Shown here piece after piece: positions 1 to 9,845 of a DNA stretch of 64,000 nt; the first letter of the stretch is position 1, and the number at the start of each line of letters is the position of its first letter. Origin of the DNA: Zhongshania antarctica (GTDB lineage Bacteria > Pseudomonadota > Gammaproteobacteria > Pseudomonadales > Spongiibacteraceae); contig NZ_JACHHW010000001.1 of NCBI RefSeq assembly GCF_014202945.1, positions 62,001 to 126,000 of the forward strand, given 5' to 3'. Both the position numbers and the translations under genes were made by a program. The notes under the pieces were generated by a model. That model did no database searches. It worked only from the letters and a program-made list of their open reading frames with translations, and was not told the DNA's origin.

Positions 1-279
1 CATTACCTGAATGGTTTCCACTGCGCTTAAAATCAGCGACACCGCAGCCGGGTTCAAGGCCATACGGCGCGTGCGCAAGCGTTCCATGAGTCGTTCAGAA
101 AGTTGCGCGCACTCCACTAACTCAACCAAGCCCAATACCGCAGCACCGCCGTACAACGTGTGAAAACCACGATGAATATCGTCGAGAATACGCTGACCGT
201 CGTAGCCATATTGCAGCTCGGTCAATTGTTCAGATAAGCGCTGGACAATTTCCTCAGCTTCCGCCAAAAAAATCGCCAT
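1..279 (-). CDS. CheA-like histidine kinase, N-terminal HPt domain (truncated by window edge)
   Basis: Only the first 93 codons are present; the gene continues beyond base 1. They read as a CheA P1/HPt domain: an acidic N-terminal helix (MAIFLAEAEEIVQRL), then the phospho-His helix IHRGFHTLYGGAAVLGL. The usual H-x-x-K-G is H-T-L-Y-G here, so the Lys after the phospho-acceptor His is a Tyr. ATG 279 is chosen because AAGGGAT precedes it; an in-frame GTG at 306 is the alternative. It is the last visible gene of the switch cluster, about 150 bases after cheY. It could be CheA or another HPt-containing kinase such as a ChpA type; the rest of the gene would decide. Confidence 0.7.
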   Translation of the reverse strand, partial: MAIFLAEAEEIVQRLSEQLTELQYGYDGQRILDDIHRGFHTLYGGAAVLGLVELVECAQLSERLMERLRTRRMALNPAAVSLILSAVETIQVM

Positions 280-429
280 AATCCCTTCGTGTTCAGTTTT
301 ATTCACGCATAACCCAATTAAATCTCTCGGCTCGACCAGCGAAGTAAGCACACATTTTCATTATGACCAAATTATTCTCTGGCTACTGTAGGACCGTTCA
401 CACTCCCACAACTTACACACTACATAGCG

Positions 430-894
430 TCATTCACCGTCAACTCGGGCGAAAATGCGCGTTATTTTACTTTCCAGCATCGCCGCAGTGAACGGCTTGA
501 CGATATACCCATTCACGCCAGCTTCAGCCGCCTCGATAATTTGCTCGCGGTGCGCGTCTGCGGTAATCATTAACACTGGAATATGGCAAAGTCGGCGATC
601 GGCACGAATAGCCCGCAACAGCTCAAGACCCGACATATGCGGCATCAATAAATCGGTAATAACAAAATCAAAATGCTGATTATGCAACATCGGCAGTGCC
701 GCTAAGCCGTCGTCTGCCTCACTAATGTAGCGATACCCCAAGTCGCCTAGGAGATTACGGATTATCCGCCGCATGGTCGAAAAATCCTCAACAACCAAAA
801 TACGCATCTCGCTACGCAGGCCCGAGACCGACGACACCGGATCACTGCTCTCCTGGTTGTGCTCAAAGGGATTCGGCGAGGAATTGTCACCCAT
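430..894 (-). CDS. cheY: CheY-type chemotaxis response regulator with N-terminal extension
   Basis: A single receiver domain of flagellar CheY type. After about 30 poorly conserved residues comes MRILVVEDFSTMRRIIRNLL, then the phospho-acceptor Asp in VITDLLMPHMSG, the switch Thr in MITADA and the Lys in NGYIVKPF, followed by a CheY-like last helix. There is no output domain, so it should act by binding a partner; the obvious candidate is FliM encoded in the same cluster. ATG 894 has GAGGAG seven bases upstream and overlaps the end of the flhG-like gene by 8 bases, which suggests translational coupling. A start at the internal Met of MRILVV would give a normal-length CheY, but I see no better ribosome site for it. 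Confidence 0.88.
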   Translation of the reverse strand: MGDNSSPNPFEHNQESSDPVSSVSGLRSEMRILVVEDFSTMRRIIRNLLGDLGYRYISEADDGLAALPMLHNQHFDFVITDLLMPHMSGLELLRAIRADRRLCHIPVLMITADAHREQIIEAAEAGVNGYIVKPFTAAMLESKITRIFARVDGE

Positions 895-1735
895 CGCGAC
901 GCTCCTCAATACCCCGTCGCTGAGAGTCCACCGCCGTTAATTGTTCAATAAAAAACAATAAGCGCCCCTCCATGCGGCTAGGCAAGGGCCACATTTGTAG
1001 CTTTTCACTAACTTCCCGCAAGGCCCTAGCTGAAACGCTGCTAGGCGCATGCAATATCACCGGATGTCGCTGGCGCACCGCATCACGTAAATTTTGATCA
1101 AAAGGAATAGCCCCCGTGTATACCAAAGCGACCTCAATAAACTGCTGGCACACGTTATTTAGGGTCTCAAATACCTGCCGGCCCTCCGCTTCGTCTGCCA
1201 CCATATTGGCGAGTATCCGAAATCGACTGCGGCCAAAATCCCTATTTAATAATTTAATCATGGCGTAAGCGTCAGTTATCGAGCTCGGCTCATTGCAGAC
1301 CACTAACAAGACCTCGTGGGCCGCGCTGACAAAGTTCACCACCGAATCGGAAATCCCCGCCGCCGTGTCAACAATCAAGACATCCAACTGCTCAGCGATC
1401 TCACTAAACGCCCGGATCAAGCCCACATGCTCAAGGCTAGACAGCATGGTTAAGTGTCGCGTGCCGGATGAGGCGGGAATAATTTTAATGCCTGCCGGCC
1501 CCGTTAACATGACCTCTTGCAATGAGCAGCTGCCATCGAGAACATCCTCGATGGTTTTAGTGCTGCGCAAACCCAACAGTACGTCGATATTCGCCAAACC
1601 AAAGTCGGCATCAAGTATTACCACTCGCTTTCCCGCCTCAGCAAGCGCGACACTGAGATTAATAGCAACATTGGTTTTACCCACCCCGCCCTTGCCGCCG
1701 CTGACGGCAATAACCTGCACCGGCCGGGAACTCAC
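887..1735 (-). CDS. flhG: FlhG/MinD-family ATPase
   Basis: A 282-residue ParA/MinD-type P-loop ATPase: deviant Walker A GGKGGVGKTNVA near residue 13, LDADFGLANIDVLLG, and VDTAAGISDSV as the Walker B region. The ANIDVLLG segment is typical of FlhG (FleN/YlxH), which sets flagellar number and helps place FliM/FliN. It starts directly at the fold (SSRPVQVIAV) and shows no N-terminal DQAxxLR helix, the part of FlhG known to stimulate FlhF; no flhF is nearby. The GTG start at 1735 overlaps the upstream stop as GTGA, so coupling is likely. A MinD-like role in positioning a ring scaffold is an inference. Confidence 0.85.
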   Translation of the reverse strand: MSSRPVQVIAVSGGKGGVGKTNVAINLSVALAEAGKRVVILDADFGLANIDVLLGLRSTKTIEDVLDGSCSLQEVMLTGPAGIKIIPASSGTRHLTMLSSLEHVGLIRAFSEIAEQLDVLIVDTAAGISDSVVNFVSAAHEVLLVVCNEPSSITDAYAMIKLLNRDFGRSRFRILANMVADEAEGRQVFETLNNVCQQFIEVALVYTGAIPFDQNLRDAVRQRHPVILHAPSSVSARALREVSEKLQMWPLPSRMEGRLLFFIEQLTAVDSQRRGIEERRDG

Positions 1736-2289
1736 CCGTTCACCTGCGCAGCGCTGATACTATGCTCACGCCAAGGCATACCAGGCAGAAGCCGAGAATA
1801 ATCGCCTATTTGCTCTACATTACACATCGCCATAATCTTTTTAAGCAAACGCAGATCAACGCTGTTCACATCAACCAGAAGCACAAGGCGACCCGAATCG
1901 ACATAGGACTGAAAATGCACCAGGTCTGGATTGTTTTCGGTCAAACCAACAAAACCACCTTCCCACGCGCCGAAACACAAAAAGCTCAGCGGTAGCGAAT
2001 AAAAAAGTATTGCGCGCGCCAAACCCTCGTCCAAATTAAATACTGAAACAAAGATCATCACCAATAGACAACCGAGCAGAAACCCCCAGAAACCGCCGCG
2101 CCAGGCCCGACCATAAAGATTGCTAAGCAGCAGCTCGGAGGCAACTGGCACCCCCATACGCTGCACATCGGCGGTATGCTTACTGACCACGCACCAGCGC
2201 CAGCCGGTCAAATGAGGCTGATTCAGCATGTCGGCGACTTCCCTGAGCTTGCTAGGGGTTTTACTTAAAAATATGAGGCGGTGCTTCAT
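1732..2289 (-). CDS. Unknown two-TM protein embedded in the switch cluster
   Basis: I do not recognise this 185-residue protein with confidence. It has a soluble N-terminal part of about 65 residues, two hydrophobic segments near residues 68-87 (GGFWGFLLGCLLVMIFVSVF) and 92-116, the second with small-residue spacing like a glycine zipper, and a C-terminal soluble part (about 120-185) that looks like a small alpha/beta fold (SGRLVLLVDVNSVDL). The layout resembles DUF1269-like membrane proteins, but that is only an impression. It lies between fliN and flhG, with a GTGA overlap with flhG, so it is probably a dedicated membrane component of this system. Confidence 0.75.
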   Translation of the reverse strand: MKHRLIFLSKTPSKLREVADMLNQPHLTGWRWCVVSKHTADVQRMGVPVASELLLSNLYGRAWRGGFWGFLLGCLLVMIFVSVFNLDEGLARAILFYSLPLSFLCFGAWEGGFVGLTENNPDLVHFQSYVDSGRLVLLVDVNSVDLRLLKKIMAMCNVEQIGDYSRLLPGMPWREHSISAAQVNG

Positions 2290-2304
2290 CTAATCTTCCT
2301 GATT

Positions 2305-2736
2305 TCATCGCAGAGACTGTAGGCGTTCAGCGGCGCTAACAACTTCAGTCAATCGTATGCCAAGCTTATCCTCTACCACCACGACCTCCCCTCTGGCAAC
2401 CAAGGTACCGTTAACCAAAACATCGAGCGGTTCACCTGCTTGCCGGTCCAACTCAACAATCGCACCCTGATGCAACTGTAATAGCTCTCTGATTGGCATA
2501 TCCGCACCACCCACTTCAAGGGTAATGCGCACAGGAATATCGAGCACCATTTCCAAGTCAGGTGCCGCGGGCTTGCGATCTTGGAGCCGAGCCCCAGCAT
2601 GTTGAAACGCGCTAGTCGCCTGAAACCCCTCGTGCGCTCGATCATTACCCGGGGCGCCCGCACCACTGCGATCAGCGGCTTCAATTTCTTCTTTGAGCGC
2701 CCGACGCTGGCGGCGCAGCTCATCTTGATTATCCAT
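2305..2736 (-). CDS. fliN: Flagellar switch protein FliN
   Basis: 143 residues. The N-terminal 60 are charged and variable; the C-terminal 80 form a clear FliN/SpoA domain (LEMVLDIPVRITLEVG, IRELLQLHQGAIVELDR, EPLDVLVNG, GEVVVVEDKLGIRLTEV). In flagella FliN forms the base of the C-ring and helps bind CheY and cargo. The SpoA core is intact. ATG 2736 is chosen for GGAGAT upstream; an upstream TTG at 2751 would add five residues. It follows fliM by 33 bases and should be cotranscribed with it. Confidence 0.93.
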   Translation of the reverse strand: MDNQDELRRQRRALKEEIEAADRSGAGAPGNDRAHEGFQATSAFQHAGARLQDRKPAAPDLEMVLDIPVRITLEVGGADMPIRELLQLHQGAIVELDRQAGEPLDVLVNGTLVARGEVVVVEDKLGIRLTEVVSAAERLQSLR

Positions 2737-2769
2737 GACCGATATCTCCAAGCACGTTTATCATTATAA

Positions 2770-3726
2770 TTAGGCCCGTCGATCAATAATTTTCAGGGCT
2801 AGCTGGCCATTCGCCACACCCAAACTTGCCGTGGCCATCTCAATACCACTGGCTTTTAATACTGAGCGCTGCCCAGCTCCAAGTGGAATAATATCGCCCA
2901 CTTTCATACTGGCCACTTCCCGTAAACTCAATACCGGCTGCGCAATTGTACATCGGGTGGCGACGCGTAAATCCAGCAAGGAATCACGCAGAGCAGCTTG
3001 CCAATATGGGTCTTCTACCGCTTGATCAGCGCTTTCCTTTTTACTTAGTTGATCTCGCACCGGCTCCAGCATCAATTGCGGCAGTGTAATATGAAATTCA
3101 CCGCCACCGCCGCCCTCCAGTTCAATTTGAAACCGACACAAAACCACGGTTTCGGACTGCCCTGCAATGGCTGCCATGGCGGGATTTACTTCCATGGCAA
3201 GCCCCTCGCACTGAACGTCTTTGAACACACCCCACGCTTGCTGGTAGTCGCTGAGCGCACGCTTCACCAAGCGTGCAAGCACGCGGCGCTCAACCGGACT
3301 AAAATCACGACCGTCGGCACTTCCCTGGCCGCCACTGCCGCCAAAAAATATGTCAACCAATCTAAAGACTAAACGCGCATCAAATACCAACATTGCGGCT
3401 CCCTTTAGCGGGTGAACACGCATCAAGTTTAAACTGGTCGGCACATAGAGCGAATGCAAATACTCGCTATAAGGTAGAAACTGCAGATCGAGGGCGACAA
3501 CATCGACTCCCTGGCCCAAAACATCCGAAATACTGTCGCGAAAGCGCTCTGCAAATCGCTTATTAAGCTGCTCCAAGCCCGGCAATCGGCGCTTTTTCGG
3601 CTGCCGCCGGCTGGCCAAGTCAAAAGATCGCGGTGGCGCCTCACTATTTTCTGCGCGAACGCCTTGGGCCTGCACATTAGCCAGCAAGGCATCGATCTCT
3701 GCCTGGGATAGTAAGTCTTTAACCAT
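2770..3726 (-). CDS. fliM: Flagellar switch protein FliM
   Basis: A full-length FliM of 318 residues. The N-terminus MVKDLLSQAEIDALL is the CheY-binding peptide, kept almost perfectly. The middle CheC-like domain carries the FliG-binding glycine motif IFFGGSGGQG, and the C-terminal SpoA domain (LSLREVASMKVGDIIPLG) pairs with FliN. In ordinary motors FliM connects FliG to FliN and receives CheY-P. Nothing looks degenerate, in contrast to FliF and FliG here. ATG 3726 gives the canonical family N-terminus; a TTG at 3738 is less likely. A gap of about 170 bases separates it from the hpt gene and holds a GTCA-N6-TGAC palindrome. Confidence 0.95.
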   Translation of the reverse strand: MVKDLLSQAEIDALLANVQAQGVRAENSEAPPRSFDLASRRQPKKRRLPGLEQLNKRFAERFRDSISDVLGQGVDVVALDLQFLPYSEYLHSLYVPTSLNLMRVHPLKGAAMLVFDARLVFRLVDIFFGGSGGQGSADGRDFSPVERRVLARLVKRALSDYQQAWGVFKDVQCEGLAMEVNPAMAAIAGQSETVVLCRFQIELEGGGGGEFHITLPQLMLEPVRDQLSKKESADQAVEDPYWQAALRDSLLDLRVATRCTIAQPVLSLREVASMKVGDIIPLGAGQRSVLKASGIEMATASLGVANGQLALKIIDRRA

Positions 3727-3834
3727 ATGGAAACACAACCGTCAGCGCTGCAAATGAATCATCAACACCAATGAATGCAAGGGGTGAGCCAATTATTTTT
3801 TATATAGAATCAATCACTTAGAAAAATCACTACT

Positions 3835-3848
3835 GTCAACAAATTGAC
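3835..3848. promoter_or_regulatory. GTCA-N6-TGAC palindrome in the fliM leader
   Basis: GTCAACAAATTGAC in the gap between hpt and fliM. It has the same arms and spacing as the two palindromes upstream of the short fliF, which suggests a shared DNA-binding regulator and possibly an internal promoter for fliM onward. No regulator is identified. Confidence 0.45.
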
Positions 3849-3893
3849 AAATCACTATTCATCCAGCAACCACGCCAGCGGCTCGCCCAACAC

Positions 3894-4250
3894 TTAAACT
3901 TGGCCAAGCCATTTATTAAGCGAGACCATGGCCTCCTCAAAACTGCGCTGGGTATTGCCAAAATCTTGTTCTATACCGCTAAAACTCGCATCGCGACCAC
4001 GCAGCTCTAAACCGCGAAACTGCTGCGACAGACCCACCGCCCCCAGTGTGGCGGCGCCGCCTTTCAAACTATGGGCGGTCTGGCGCAGTGTTTCTGCGTC
4101 GCGATCCTCAATCGCTTGCGCTACTTGCACTAAGCGCTCACGGGTATCCTCTTCAAACTCACTAATCAGAATATGAACGTCGGCGTCCATAAACTCGCGC
4201 AACTCATCTAATAAACTCAAATCCAAGGCATTCATATCTGCATCATCCAT
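3894..4250 (-). CDS. Free-standing HPt phosphotransfer protein
   Basis: 118 residues forming one HPt four-helix domain: LDELREFMDADVHILISEFEEDTRERL, then the phospho-His helix TAHSLKGGAATLGAVGL with the full HSLKGG motif, then helices ending MVSLNKWLGQV. Such proteins shuttle phosphate between a hybrid kinase receiver and another receiver. An HPt gene between fliG and fliM is not part of standard flagellar operons, so it may feed phosphate to the CheY here. No kinase or hybrid receiver lies beside it. ATG 4250 is used; GTG 4274 is an alternative and neither has a strong ribosome site. Confidence 0.87.
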   Translation of the reverse strand: MDDADMNALDLSLLDELREFMDADVHILISEFEEDTRERLVQVAQAIEDRDAETLRQTAHSLKGGAATLGAVGLSQQFRGLELRGRDASFSGIEQDFGNTQRSFEEAMVSLNKWLGQV

Positions 4251-4294
4251 GTTTTTTATTGCCCAGTTGCGCACTAATTTTTGCGTCTACAACC

Positions 4295-5302
4295 TCAAAA
4301 CACATCTATTTTACGCGCATCAAGTATTATTTCACCCACTGCCGCCATATGTTTGGCAATGCTGACTATCTCGGCGCGCGCTGATTCGATTTCTGTTGGA
4401 CTAAACCGCGAGCCTAGTGCGGCAATCGCCGCTAACTTATCCGCAGACAGATTACCAAGCAGTTGCTTGCGCAGCTCTGCGCCGGTACCTCGCAAGGCCG
4501 GAGCCAAAACTTCGGGGGCGAGCTGAGCAAGGAGTATTGCCAAGTCCCGCGGCGCCATATTAGCAATTTGAGCAAAGCCAAACATAAGTTCCTCTACCCG
4601 GGCTGCACTCTCCGGCTGGGCATAACGCAGTCCGTTTAACAGTGTACTTTCCGTCCCGACATCCATTTCATTAAGCAATTTGGCGGCCATTGAGTCACCT
4701 TGCAAGACCCTGCCAACGGGACGACCGAGGTCACTAAAATACTGCTCCAGCAGCCACTCCAGCTCCTCCAACGCAGCGGGAGTTAGCGATTTAAGAGCCG
4801 ATAAGCGCGCTAAAACATCAACGCGCTTTGCCTCGTCAAAGGCAAGCAACACCTCACTCGCTAAGCGAGGCTCAAGACAGGCAACGACCACCGCCTGGAT
4901 CTGCGGGTGCTCGCGCCGAATAATACCTGCGATAGTAGCGGCATCTAGCCATTTTAATTTTGCGATATGCTTTGCCTGACCATGAAACGCCAGTCTATCA
5001 CTCATCAATTTAGCGCGATCTTGCCCTAGCGCCTCCTCAAGCAGACTCGATACTGCGTCGCTAGCACCAAGTTTAACCCCAGAAAAATCAACGACATCCA
5101 GATGGAAGCGACGCAAAATAGCCTTGAAATCAGCATTGTTTGGCGCAGACATCATCGTCATCGCCTCTGCCACTCGATGTAAGTCACGGGGCGCCATAGC
5201 GCGCATCACCGCTGCCGCATCGGCCTTTTCTAATGACATTAACAGCGCCGCTGCCTGCTCGGTACTCGATAAAGTTACGCTTGCGGAACTCACCATAGAC
5301 AC
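4295..5302 (-). CDS. fliG: FliG-like switch protein with altered stator-facing helix
   Basis: About 335 residues, normal FliG length. FliG-N (EQAAALLMSLEKADAAAVM) is the part that binds FliF. The middle domain keeps the EHPQ motif (REHPQIQAVVVACL) that contacts FliM. FliG-C begins at ELMFGFAQIANMAPRDLAILL and ends EIVSIAKHMAAVGEII. Aligned by eye to E. coli FliG, the torque helix is about three residues shorter and reads SADKLAAIAALGSRF, so the acidic pair D288/D289 is Ala-Ala and R281 has no clear equivalent; K264 is Arg. The ring-assembly surfaces look kept while the MotA contact does not. GTG 5302 has GGGAG six bases upstream; ATG 5296 is next. Confidence 0.88.
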   Translation of the reverse strand: MSMVSSASVTLSSTEQAAALLMSLEKADAAAVMRAMAPRDLHRVAEAMTMMSAPNNADFKAILRRFHLDVVDFSGVKLGASDAVSSLLEEALGQDRAKLMSDRLAFHGQAKHIAKLKWLDAATIAGIIRREHPQIQAVVVACLEPRLASEVLLAFDEAKRVDVLARLSALKSLTPAALEELEWLLEQYFSDLGRPVGRVLQGDSMAAKLLNEMDVGTESTLLNGLRYAQPESAARVEELMFGFAQIANMAPRDLAILLAQLAPEVLAPALRGTGAELRKQLLGNLSADKLAAIAALGSRFSPTEIESARAEIVSIAKHMAAVGEIILDARKIDVF

Positions 5303-5353
5303 AAAAAACTCCCAGAACACAGTGATGACATTGCGCCCCCTTGCCAGACCATA

Positions 5354-6043
5354 TTATTGACGGTCATCATTTAGCCAAGCACTTAATACCCCAGCAACCC
5401 GACCTGGCTCCTGCTTGGCAATCGTTTTCAAAGCCAGCAGTTGCTTTTGATAATCACTCACTTCTTGCGCTTTCAGCAGGTCACGGCGACGCTGGCGGCG
5501 CCAAAGCCACAAAACCAACAGCCCCACGGAGACAAATGCCGCTCCTACAACTGCCCGCCAAGCCGCCAACACCTGATCACCCACACCGCCACCTTGAGAG
5601 TGGCTTGGCGCGAAGGCATGAAACTGAACAACAACTTTGTCATCCCGAACTGCGTTTAGCGCTAGGCCAGACCACAATATTTCTCGCAAACGTTGCGCTA
5701 ACGAGCTGTCTACTTCTGGGCGATTAATCAATAGCGTGACTTGCCTAGAACCCGGCCTAACATCATTTATACTAACGGTAACGCGAAAGTCCACCGCTGC
5801 CACAAAGGGTTCTATTAGTTGCTGCGACTGGCGCTGAAGTTGAATTTCACGCAGGCTAACATCGTCGGCACGCCTATCTTGAGCACCATACTGAGGCTGC
5901 CCTGTGCTGAGCAACTGCGGCCAAACCACCTGCGCAACCACGCCGCCGCCAATAACCAGCAGAGCAATGAGCATCGCCGCTATTAAGTTGCCCGCTAAAC
6001 TCTTCTTAAACAAAGTGCACTCCACCTTACCCCACAAAGCCAT
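5354..6043 (-). CDS. Miniature FliF-like MS-ring protein
   Basis: 229 residues against about 550 for FliF. Order: a short basic N-terminus, TM1 (LIAAMLIALLVIGGGVVAQVV), a periplasmic part of about 125 residues, TM2 (VVGAAFVSVGLLVLWLW), and a basic cytoplasmic tail ending VAGVLSAWLNDDRQ. The tail matches the FliF C-terminus that binds FliG (VALVIRQWM-type). The periplasmic part (LIEPFVAAVDFRVTVSIN, then RQVTLLINRP and DDKVVVQFHAF) matches the two halves of the FliF RBM3 domain; RBM1, RBM2 and most of the beta-collar insertion are absent. ATG 6070 and a TTG near 6013, which has GGAG before it, are alternative starts; ATG 6043 has no good ribosome site. It is the first gene of the cluster. Confidence 0.8.
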   Translation of the reverse strand: MALWGKVECTLFKKSLAGNLIAAMLIALLVIGGGVVAQVVWPQLLSTGQPQYGAQDRRADDVSLREIQLQRQSQQLIEPFVAAVDFRVTVSINDVRPGSRQVTLLINRPEVDSSLAQRLREILWSGLALNAVRDDKVVVQFHAFAPSHSQGGGVGDQVLAAWRAVVGAAFVSVGLLVLWLWRRQRRRDLLKAQEVSDYQKQLLALKTIAKQEPGRVAGVLSAWLNDDRQ

Positions 6044-6044
6044 C

Positions 6045-6058
6045 GTCAAATATTTGAC
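6045..6058. promoter_or_regulatory. Perfect palindrome GTCAAATATTTGAC before the mini-fliF
   Basis: A 14-base perfect inverted repeat touching the proposed ATG at 6043. Its position suggests an operator, or that translation really begins further downstream. It shares GTCA-N6-TGAC with the sites at 6095 and 3835. Confidence 0.55.
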
Positions 6059-6094
6059 AGGCCAGTACATCCGATCAATTGACAGCCTAAATCC

Positions 6095-6242: not shown

Positions 6243-7136
6243 TCAGAGCTGCGTGATCTCGATATAGTCACTTCTTGATGACAGTGGCACGCCACCAGAA
6301 TCGATGGTTTGACTGGAGTCAAAACCATATTCTTTGCGTTCGCCCGTGCGGTCAATGGTGAGATTGGCGAAATCGAATAATTCGGTATCTGCCATTTGTG
6401 ATGGGGCAATGTTTTGCATAGACGAGAAAATTTTCTCGATGCGGCTGCCATCGGCCTTTTCCCAATCTAGCAGCATTTTACGAATATTCTGGCGCTGTAA
6501 ATTCTCCTGTGAGCCACAGAGGTTACAGGGAATAATGGGGAATTCTTTGTACTGCGAGAACGCTTCAATATCCGACTCACGGCAGTATGCCAGTGGCCTT
6601 ATAACAATATTGCGTTTGTCGTCTGACAGTAGCTTGGGGGGCATACCCGACAGCCGCGAGCCGTAGAACATATTCAAAAACAAGGTTTGCACAATATCGT
6701 CTTTGTGGTGACCCAGTGCAATTTTGGTCGCGCCGATCTCTTCCGCAAAGGCATACAAAGTACCACGGCGCAGACGGGAGCAAAGCCCACAGGTAGTTTT
6801 GCCCTCAGGAATCTTTTGTTTCACAATCGAATAGGTATCTTTATTGACGATGTAATACTCAATACCCAGCCCATCAAGATACTCAGGCAAAATATGCTCT
6901 GGGTAGAACGGCTGCTTTTGATCCATATTGACCGCGATCAGCTCAAACTTAACCGGCGCGCTCTTTTGTAAATTCATTAAGATATCCAGCATGGTATAGC
7001 TGTCTTTACCGCCAGACAGACACACCATCACGCGATCGCCCTCTTCGATCATTTTGTAGTCTTCAATCGCCTGCCCTGCATGGCGACGCAGGCGTTTTTG
7101 CAATTTATTGAACTCTAGCTTTGGCAAACTGGACAT
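6243..7136 (-). CDS. ttcA: tRNA 2-thiocytidine biosynthesis protein TtcA
   Basis: About 297 residues of the TtcA/TilS PP-loop family. The ATP-pyrophosphatase loop [12 protein letters not shown] is near residue 40; the CxxC of [12 protein letters not shown] and the CNLC pair later hold the iron-sulfur cluster used for thiolation of C32 in t[23 protein letters not shown] is also typical. ATG 7136 gives the usual N-terminus ([16 protein letters not shown]); a TTG at 7151 is less likely. It has no link to the switch cluster downstream on the same strand and marks that cluster's right-hand border, about 200 bases from the first switch gene. Confidence 0.96.
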
Positions 7137-7467
7137 AGCACTTAAAATCAATCGAGGCTGGGGCTGCGCATTATATAGAAACCATGGATATGCGGCTACA
7201 AAGTAGCCAATGGAAAGACCAAGAAACCACCAGCACGGCTCCGCTCACCACTTAAAATCAAGCAAAATCCGCCGTTTTTAGCACTCTTCACGGCTCAGCA
7301 CTGGCAATCCGAGGTTGAGATGACTATCATTAGGCCGCCAAAATCTGCTGGCACGAGGTGTATTGGACACGGCCAGACCCCGGCACGGGTGCATGTCGGA
7401 CTGTGTAATCCACATCCGATCGCACCCGCTCACAAATCAGCCACTCATTCAGAAAGGGAATCGCCCA
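7137..7467. other. Gene-free stretch between ttcA and mdh
   Basis: About 330 bases between divergently transcribed genes. It must carry both promoters. I see no convincing ORF, RNA gene or strong inverted repeat in it. Confidence 0.6.
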
Positions 7468-8448
7468 ATGAAACAACCAGTTCGCGTCACCGTTACCGGT
7501 GCAGCCGGCCAAATTGGCTACGCTCTACTTTTCCGCATCGCCTCTGGCGCTATGCTGGGCGACGATCAGCCCGTTATTTTACACTTGCTCGACATCACTC
7601 CAGCCATGGACGCCTTGCAAGGCGTGCGCATGGAACTGGAAGATTGCGCCTTCCCATTATTGGCTGGCGTAGTTTGCACCGACGATCCAAATGTCGGCTT
7701 TAAAGATGCCGACTACGCCCTACTTGTTGGCGCACGTCCACGTGGCCCAGGCATGGAGCGTAAAGACCTGCTCGAAGCTAACGCGGCAATCTTCTCTGTT
7801 CAAGGCAAGGCCATTGACCAGAATGCCAGCAAAAACATCAAAGTATTGGTTGTCGGCAACCCCGCTAACACCAACGCGCTGATCGCTCAACGCAATGCGC
7901 CGTCGATCAACCCACGCAACTTCACTGCCATGACGCGTTTGGATCACAACCGCGCCATGACCCAGATTGCCATCAAAACCGGCAAAACTGTGAACGACGT
8001 GACCAATATGACCATTTGGGGCAACCACTCTGCCACTCAGTACCCAGACCTTTTCAACGCTAAGGTTTCTGGCCAGACTGCAAGTGACTTGGTTGATCAA
8101 GCATGGCTCGAAGGCGACTTCATCCCAACTGTACAGCAGCGCGGTGCAGCCATCATTAAAGCCCGTGGCGCATCTTCTGCCGCATCTGCAGCTAACGCCG
8201 CAATCGGCCACGTGCGCAGCTGGGCGCTGGGCACCGAAGGCGACGACTGGGTTTCTATGGGTGTATACAGCGACGGCAGCTACGGCATTGCTGAAGGCCT
8301 GATCTACTCATTCCCTTGCCGCTGCAAAGATGGCGAGTGGGAGATTGTTCAAGGCGTTGACGTTAATGACTTCAGCCGCGCAAAAATGCAAGCTTCTGAA
8401 CAAGAGCTCGCTGAAGAGCGTGACGGCGTTAAACACTTGCTTCCTTAA
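7468..8448 (+). CDS. mdh: NAD-dependent malate dehydrogenase
   Basis: 326 residues of the lactate/malate dehydrogenase family, the approximately 326-residue bacterial type. It begins with the nucleotide-binding loop [21 protein letters not shown], has the substrate Arg segment [42 protein letters not shown] and the catalytic His in [13 protein letters not shown]. It interconverts malate and oxaloacetate in the TCA cycle. ATG 7468 follows AAAGGGAA at good spacing; the reading frame extends upstream but that part does not resemble the family. A strong terminator follows at 8465. Confidence 0.97.
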
Positions 8449-9362: not shown

Positions 9363-9845
9363 CTAAGCCTTGGCATCTACCCAGACAAGCCCCGGTGTCG
9401 ACGAAATTTGATGACGCCGCCCTGCACGATTGAGCGAGCGAACCCCCGCCTGCAAACGCACCCTCAACTCCTCACGCCAAGCGGGCTTTGCAATATAATC
9501 GTCGGCGCCCGCATCCATGGCTGCAATTAAGTCGACCGAGGCATTACGGCCGGTCAGCATTATGAAATAAGGACGCCCTAAATCCTCGTCCTCAGCCAAG
9601 CGCTGACAAAACTCCAGGCCAGTCATGCCAGGCATCAACCAATCGCTCAGTACGATATCCACCTTCCGCTTTTTAATAAACCGCAAAGCCTCAGTTGCGT
9701 TCTCAGCAAGTATTGGCGCCATACCCATTGACTGCAAAACGGCCTGCAAGCGCATTCGCTCCACTCGATTATCTTCTACAACCAAAACCGTGACCTTCAC
9801 CTCGGACCCGGCGCGCAGCATCTCGTTTTTTTCAAAAAATTCCAT
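9363..9845 (-). CDS. Orphan single-domain response regulator
   Basis: 160 residues with one receiver domain: VLVVEDNRVERMRLQAVLQ, phospho-acceptor Asp in IVLSDWLMPGMTGLEF, Thr in IMLTGRN and Lys in DYIAKPAW. The last 30 residues are basic and not a recognisable output domain. The start ATG 9845 has AGGTGA upstream. No kinase or chemotaxis gene is adjacent. It is more like the receivers of hybrid or cyclic-di-GMP proteins than like CheY, so it need not belong to the switch cluster 3.3 kb away. Its partner is unknown. Confidence 0.9.
   Translation of the reverse strand: MEFFEKNEMLRAGSEVKVTVLVVEDNRVERMRLQAVLQSMGMAPILAENATEALRFIKKRKVDIVLSDWLMPGMTGLEFCQRLAEDEDLGRPYFIMLTGRNASVDLIAAMDAGADDYIAKPAWREELRVRLQAGVRSLNRAGRRHQISSTPGLVWVDAKA

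Follow-up and report, generated by a model that had tools for sequence, protein, structure and literature searches.

We analyzed a 64,000-nucleotide stretch of the Zhongshania antarctica genome (the window; positions 62001-126000 of contig C1 in a genome of 3.85 Mb, here G000), close to the left edge of which lies a compact operon of flagellar switch and chemotaxis-related genes. Eight minus-strand open reading frames (ORFs) follow each other in the order fliF'-fliG'-hpt-fliM'-fliN'-two-TM-flhG'-cheY' (Table 1; primes mark the operon copies, and two-TM a protein with two predicted transmembrane (TM) segments), separated by 15-155 bp or overlapping by 4 or 23 bp, and are followed by a gene for a shortened CheA (the CheA stub) that crosses the window's edge. 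Pfam searches recovered the Response_reg, ParA-type ATPase, FliMN_C, FliM, Hpt (histidine phosphotransfer) and FliG_N/M/C domains above cut-off, and gave no match above cut-off for the short FliF or the two-TM protein. FliM' and FliN' pass their NCBIfam equivalog cut-offs, FliG' falls below its own (143.6 vs 226.7 bits) and no NCBIfam model is matched by the short FliF. There are no export, rod, hook or filament genes among the ORFs of the locus and no stator genes either, the rest of the genome not having been searched for stators. Thus the original prediction, which was made from the window sequence alone, was right in describing a tight operon of these eight genes devoid of the remaining flagellar components. 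To the left of the window the CheA stub continues for 564 bases, the operon ends, and ccmA and further genes that we presume to be ccm genes (named by eye) come next; this rules out the larger flagellar regulon that might have continued beyond the first base. A promoter-like site upstream of fliF' (6127-6098) is a consensus match only. A lone single-domain response regulator of 160 aa is encoded near the operon, on the minus strand at 9363-9845 of the window.

Table 1. Genes of the operon and of its right flank, with positions in the window
Feature	Position	Strand	Length	Remarks
cheA stub, 5' part	1..351	-	304 aa in total	reaches C1:61437, left of the window
cheY'	430..909	-	159 aa	CheY receiver; N-terminal extension with PNPF motif; phospho-acceptor Asp present
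flhG'	887..1735	-	282 aa	MinD-type ATPase (FlhG/FleN) retaining the P-loop and an FF motif at the C-terminus
two-TM protein	1732..2289	-	185 aa	broad family within the order; distant DUF1269 likeness via one relative
fliN'	2305..2751	-	148 aa	Pfam and NCBIfam
fliM'	2770..3738	-	322 aa	belongs to the native Pseudomonadales lineage; retains GGxG and an N-terminal LSQxEIDALL
hpt	3894..4274	-	126 aa	stand-alone Hpt domain, phospho-His present; best relative of solved structure 7c1i
fliG'	4295..5320	-	341 aa	has N, M and C domains; torque-helix motif lost, but EHPQ and MFxF retained
fliF'	5354..6070	-	238 aa	TM1, one RBM3-like ring-building domain, TM2, FliG-binding tail; RBM1, RBM2 and collar missing
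ttcA	6243..7151	-		right flank (by eye); precedes the native flagellar cluster of G195 and G068 as well
mdh (malate dehydrogenase)	7468..8448	+		second right-flank gene (by eye); same neighbor in G195 and G068

The six loci that encode close relatives of FliG' all come from genomes named Zhongshania, and the same genes lie between ttcA and ccmA in these and in 15 loci of genus relatives, two samples that overlap in that several are the same genomes, so that the arrangement is no product of chance. Of 18 genomes of the genus, 17 (that of the window among them) yielded a strong second FliG with a FliG' profile (>250 bits); G272 (149 bits) and the sister-genus genomes G095 (162 bits) and G390 (138 bits) yielded a weaker one, and G391, an assembly that is 70% complete, none. 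Across 390 genomes of the order, scores above 250 bits were confined to this genus, the best FliG of the native Pseudomonadales flagellar clusters (hereinafter native) reaching 236.5 bits. The two-TM protein was dropped as a specific marker in favor of FliG', since its profile matches 164 of the 390 genomes; one of two relatives scanned gave a weak, below cut-off match to DUF1269, and its structure model was poor (mean predicted local distance difference test score, pLDDT, 57.6) and was not taken to a fold search. We then inspected gene content in 19 of the 21 genomes of the family (G391 and G392 were left out), namely 15 loci picked by a strong match to the two-TM profile, the window's own, and those of G272, G095 and G390. 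The first 16 of these have FliG, Hpt, FliM, FliN, two-TM, FlhG, CheY and the CheA stub all between ttcA and ccmA. FliG', FliM', FliN' and CheY' are open frames in all 19, although the divergence among the loci is deep, with FliM' identity falling to 40-43%; the stops reported within the FliG matches of G343 and G361 are codons just 5' of the ORF starts. At the reduced end of the range, the CheA stub is a mere 162-aa Hpt-like ORF in G095 (by eye) and has 164 aa in G390.

The short FliF was called from what we take to be a FliG-binding motif in its tail. Its structure model (mean pLDDT 70.6, 7 sequences) comprises TM1, a helix-strand-strand-helix-strand domain, TM2 and the tail; unlike a full-length FliF with RBM1-3 and collar, it has one RBM-like domain and no collar. 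In a Foldseek search with this model the 14 best matches were all FliF entries of the membrane-supramembrane ring (MS-ring), with E-values of 2e-4 to 8e-3 and template-modelling scores of only 0.24-0.56, and this fold search alone provided a relative, as the FliF' profile found no credible one among PDB sequences. FliF and FliG are encoded by separate genes in 11 of the 19 loci and by a single reading frame in the other 8 (six joins were flagged by script, those of G390 and G272 by eye). The joined protein of G378, G212, G063 and G148 consists of N-terminal hydrophobic segments and the tail, without the ring domain (partly by eye), and in G272 the FliF tail alone, with no predicted TM, is fused to FliG, no other ORF of 90 aa being found between ttcA and the fused gene. 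Hence, FliF shrinks stepwise down to a tail fused to FliG; a mended pattern for this tail matches 15 of 19 sequences, but not those of G308, G192, G232 and G272. The membrane ring scaffold that had been proposed for the complex is doubtful as a general feature, since FliF retains one ring-building domain in the window, none in G378, G212, G063 and G148, and only the tail in G272. FliG' retains the EHPQ motif in 19 of 19 sequences (57 of 57 when native and modern FliG, the latter from the second flagellar set described below, are included) and MFxF in 15. The torque-helix motif and ALKG are seen in none of the 19, though all 20 native and all 18 modern FliG proteins have them. The original prediction of a changed FliF and a changed FliG thus holds in both respects.

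An N-terminal CheY-docking motif, [LM]SQxE[IV]DALL, is present in FliM' of all 19 loci, and the GGxG motif of FliG binding in 14 of them, the window included, being altered in G378, G212, G063, G148 and G272. The phospho-His of the free Hpt protein is retained in all 17 sequences (15 by pattern; G308 and G232 by eye), and its best match in the PDB is 7c1i (E 2e-10), labeled a histidine kinase in the match table and presumably the HptB of P. aeruginosa. FlhG' has its P-loop in 17 of 17 cases and the C-terminal FF motif in 15 by pattern and in the other two by eye. The CheA stub consists of an Hpt domain detected by Pfam, a linker and a P3-like end, with neither a P4 ATPase nor a P5 CheW domain according to Pfam and alignment. 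Its alignment to a full CheA stops near residue 400, before the HATPase (447-586) and CheW (593-721) regions, and the P3 assignment comes from this BLAST alignment (29% identity over 134 positions, E 6e-10), Pfam reporting no P3. What had been taken for a CheA-like kinase is therefore a kinase-less stub, and, as it has no ATPase or CheW domain, a CheA kinase within the operon is ruled out. The N-terminal extension of CheY' carries a P[ND]PF motif in 17 of 19 loci (not in G095 and G390), which is perhaps a docking peptide. In G192 (locus L050) the phospho-His of the CheA stub and the acceptor Asp of CheY' are both lost while the His of the free Hpt is retained, a single case of joint loss suggesting that the CheA stub and CheY' may work together.

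To measure constraint, the ratio of nonsynonymous to synonymous substitution rates (dN/dS) was computed by the NG86 and YN00 methods for three close pairs, a fourth pair being left out as several of its genes were saturated. By NG86 it is lowest for FliM' (0.025-0.035), FlhG' (0.034-0.038) and FliN' (0.050-0.056), with wider ranges for FliG' (0.039-0.102), CheY' (0.018-0.120) and Hpt (0.013-0.191) and higher values for the two-TM protein (0.063-0.289) and the CheA stub (0.122-0.283); the flanking ccmA and ttcA gave 0.049-0.210 and 0.013-0.159. YN00 values run higher than those of NG86. Most genes of the operon are under strong purifying selection, the CheA stub, FliF' and the two-TM protein being less constrained. 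Given this selection on most genes and the frames that remain open in 19 of 19 genomes, the operon is not plain debris.

The genome carries a second FliG and a second FliM/FliN pair. A cluster at 263-284 kb of C1 encodes a full-length FliF (551 aa), FliE, H, I, J, K, FliC, FliD, FliL, M, N, O, P, R and FlhB, and flgH-L, flhA, flhF, flhG and fliA are found at 266-277 kb of C3 (gene names in both stretches were assigned by eye from ORF lists); we refer to this set as modern. The reduced set as the sole flagellar set is ruled out by the second FliG, FliM and FliN, the full-length FliF and the only FlhA, all of which lie elsewhere. The original prediction had spoken of a switch complex without a flagellum, which is correct for the locus and incorrect for the genome, and the second, full-length fliF-fliG whose existence it had left open is indeed there. 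FlhA occurs exactly once in each of the 21 family genomes, and no second protein of the FHIPEP family (the SctV/FlhA-type export gate) was found in any of them. FlhA lies on the same contig as the modern FliG and no farther than about 20 kb from it in 15 of the 21; of the remaining six, G000, G291, G123, G252 and G023 have it farther off or on a different contig, and G391 has no FliG match. This single FlhA, mostly beside the modern FliG, makes secretion, one of the jobs suggested earlier, an unlikely role. In the genome of the window only two CheW-domain proteins were detected, of 190 aa and 1791 aa (G000:C2:297828-305284), the larger of which we take, from its size, to be ChpA-like. A further CheA of about 690 aa is present in 12 of 21 family genomes and absent from that of the window, and the operon is retained in genomes of both kinds.

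The best clue to the origin of the operon is a complete flagellar supercluster at the same position in a related family, which could not be seen from the window. On one contig of G068 (family f47), at 3382-3428 kb, the order is mdh-ttcA-fliF-fliG-fliI-(receiver)-hpt-fliM-fliN-fliP-flhB-flhG-cheY-cheA-(ParA-like)-ccmA. G195, of the same family, has the same two cluster ends on two contigs, and between them, as judged by eye, fliE, fliH, fliJ, fliK and fliL as well as flhA, flhF, fliA, cheZ, cheB, a mot pair, a parA-like gene and cheW. A 765-aa ORF, by guess kinase-like, lies between ttcA and fliE in G195 (L110 4052-6349); in the window, nothing of similar length is encoded between ttcA and fliF'. 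In the native clusters of G195, G146, G342 and G068, ccmA comes after flhG; two-sided synteny is common to one family, and the left side is common to two more. In the FliM tree, the 19 FliM' proteins form a single clade (support 100/100), and together with 14 native FliM proteins they are split from 4 modern ones, again with 100/100. Because the stretches do not always reach FliM, a full-length copy was available in 14 of 20 native and 3 of 17 modern stretches, and the tree rests on 4 modern rows, that of the window genome included. The best FlhG proteins of seven native genomes share 53-62% identity with FlhG', whose identity to the modern FlhG of its own genome is 46%.

The lineage of FliM and the gene order of G068 between mdh-ttcA and ccmA lead to the conclusion that the operon is a stripped ancestral cluster; we hold it to be, very probably indeed, what an ancestral flagellar/chemotaxis supercluster of the Pseudomonas type has left behind, still at its old site and with its gene order unchanged. 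Relative to the native cluster it would have lost fliE, fliH-I-J, fliK-L, the genes between fliN and flhG (among them fliP, flhB, flhA and flhF), fliA, cheZ, cheB, the mot pair, the parA-like gene and cheW; FliF would have shed RBM1, RBM2 and the collar, CheA would have been cut off after P3, and the present flagellum would be served by the separate modern gene set. Several observations do not sit easily with this origin. In the FliG tree, modern FliG is nested within native FliG and the FliG' proteins form one long branch; we read this as a long-branch problem, which the tree program itself flags, yet it has to be counted on the opposing side. BLAST bit scores also place native FliG closer to modern FliG than to FliG'. 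Furthermore, extending the search by 15 kb did not reveal a ccmA in G305, G090 or G325 (the contig ends in G067), and ttcA and mdh are not in view in 12 of 14 native upstream stretches, being confined to G195 and G068 of a single family.

As to function, the conserved and lost elements suggest that a rotary motor has given up one of its parts to signaling. The interpretation that we consider rather probable is that of a switch module that is not a motor: a docking hub, controlled by a phosphorelay, for CheY' and, in most relatives, FlhG'. FliF', or its tail alone when fused to FliG, would seed FliG', and FliG', FliM' and FliN' would then assemble into a platform resembling the cytoplasmic ring (C-ring), or a smaller one, on which stators exert no torque. 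A kinase encoded elsewhere would provide phosphate, which would pass via the Hpt protein, the P1 domain of the CheA stub or both to CheY', which would dock on the N-terminus of FliM'. In monotrichous flagellates, FlhG binds the FliM N-terminus and FlrA/FleQ (PMC12826062). By analogy, FlhG', where present, could dock at the same end of FliM' and at the membrane, and the output of the hub would be the location and state of CheY' and FlhG'. The weakest step is the target, the likeliest candidates being transcription of the FleQ/FlrA type and the modern flagellum, in its number or its activity; an output through FlhG and FleQ is possible but on the whole doubtful. To this extent the original prediction of a flagellum-derived switch complex with signaling inputs, probably doing something other than turning a filament, agrees with our results. 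We regard it as evenly balanced whether the complex amounts to a free-standing signaling device that is not a motor, namely a C-ring-like platform lacking stators and export, equipped with an Hpt/CheY relay and (in most relatives) also a MinD-type ATPase, and retained throughout the depth of a bacterial family beside a flagellum of another lineage.

A number of findings weigh against the signaling hub. FlhG' and Hpt were not found in the loci of G095 and G390 among the 19 inspected, nor was the two-TM protein in those of G272 and G390; because of the two loci without FlhG', the FlhG output cannot be general. In CheY', the acceptor Asp is missing in G192 and replaced by Glu in G232, and 8 of 19 loci have a non-acidic residue at the second position of the acidic pair; with the loss of the CheA-stub His in G192, this means that phosphorylation is not universal or not canonical. 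Constraint is weaker on FliF' (NG86 0.204 and 0.331, YN00 0.25 and 0.50 in two pairs), and the pair G063-G148, whose low dS makes it noisy, gave YN00 values of 0.46 for Hpt and 0.41 for the CheA stub. Moreover, FlhA is present in every family genome searched, so that co-occurrence cannot test whether the operon is independent of the flagellum.

Some of these features would be expected if the operon were a non-functional leftover that is slowly decaying and still awaiting loss: FliF' shrinks stepwise and has a comparatively high dN/dS, CheA' is cut down and the CheY' acceptor is lost in G192. We nevertheless regard decay as very improbable, for the frames of FliG', FliM', FliN' and CheY' are unbroken across a deep divergence, the FliM' docking motif and FliG' EHPQ persist in 19 of 19, and FliM' and FlhG' show some of the lowest dN/dS values of the operon. 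A role for FliM', FliN', FliG' and CheY' as spare parts, joining or modifying the C-ring of the modern flagellum and adding a CheY input to it, is easier to entertain, since a modern-type FliG and one FlhA accompany the operon in all 19 inspected genomes and FliM' retains the CheY-docking motif; the genome of the window, having the 1791-aa protein and no ~690-aa CheA, also provides no evident chemotactic input for its flagellum. However, the low identity of FliG' to modern FliG (21%), the loss of its torque motif in all 19, the position of FliM' and modern FliM on opposite sides of a fully supported split and the presence in the operon of a separate FliF or FliF tail, which 8 of 19 loci have joined to FliG', lead us to consider it unlikely.

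Less probable again is a module for polar positioning or division-site selection, in which a small ring and FlhG' would mark a pole in analogy to Campylobacter jejuni, where division is influenced by the C-ring together with FlhG. The preservation of the FlhG' motifs would fit such a module, and flhG, fliM and fliN mutants of C. jejuni yield more minicells (PMC6946799). Against this, MinE is encoded in the window's genome and in 17 of 21 family genomes, which rules out replacement of the Min system as a general function; of the four genomes without a MinE match (G272, G095, G390 and G391), FlhG' is missing from the loci of G095 and G390 and a FliG match from G391, which leaves G272 as the one that fits.

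The signaling hub can be set beside several known systems. The rotor and switch of the Pseudomonas-type polar flagellum show the same order of parts and the same outer neighbors as in G068, a FliM of the same lineage as FliM', and the same docking and EHPQ motifs. Unlike that flagellum, the locus has no export, rod, hook, filament, stator or kinase gene, its FliF' has at most one ring domain, the torque motif is gone and CheA is cut after P3. Non-flagellar type III secretion systems retain export and the basal body. They likewise represent a part of the flagellum turned to another job (PMC3459982), and the situation here is the reverse, in that export was lost and the switch with its signaling input retained. 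In the control of flagellar number and expression by FlhF/FlhG and the C-ring (PMC12826062), FlhG likewise stands beside a FliM with intact docking motif, but our locus has no flhF, export or rod genes, and FlhG' was not found in 2 of 19 loci. In C. jejuni, C-ring proteins and FlhG also act outside motility, although there (PMC6946799) the ring is part of a working flagellum in an organism without a conventional Min system, whereas here the set is free-standing and MinE is present. The leftover flagellar genes of non-flagellated Lysobacter (PMC9927559) are similarly a retained remainder after partial loss; in contrast to them, another flagellar set is present here and the retained part is a compact, colinear switch and relay operon. 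A literature search covering titles and abstract openings returned, among the matches listed, no description of a switch-only flagellar remnant or of this locus.

Known reuse of the flagellum concerns its export half, and reuse of the switch half, if true, would mirror the origin of the injectisome. It would also mean that a C-ring can serve alone as a signaling platform, without a motor, export or a full membrane ring. The natural FliF-FliG joins and the tail-only FliF show how little of an MS-ring such a platform would need, and evolution has in effect dissected the switch by trimming a two-TM FliF down to a fused tail and CheA down to a P1-P3 stub. This series poses two testable questions, namely whether FliM, FliN and FliG assemble without an MS-ring, and whether the control of FlhG by the C-ring is separable from motility.

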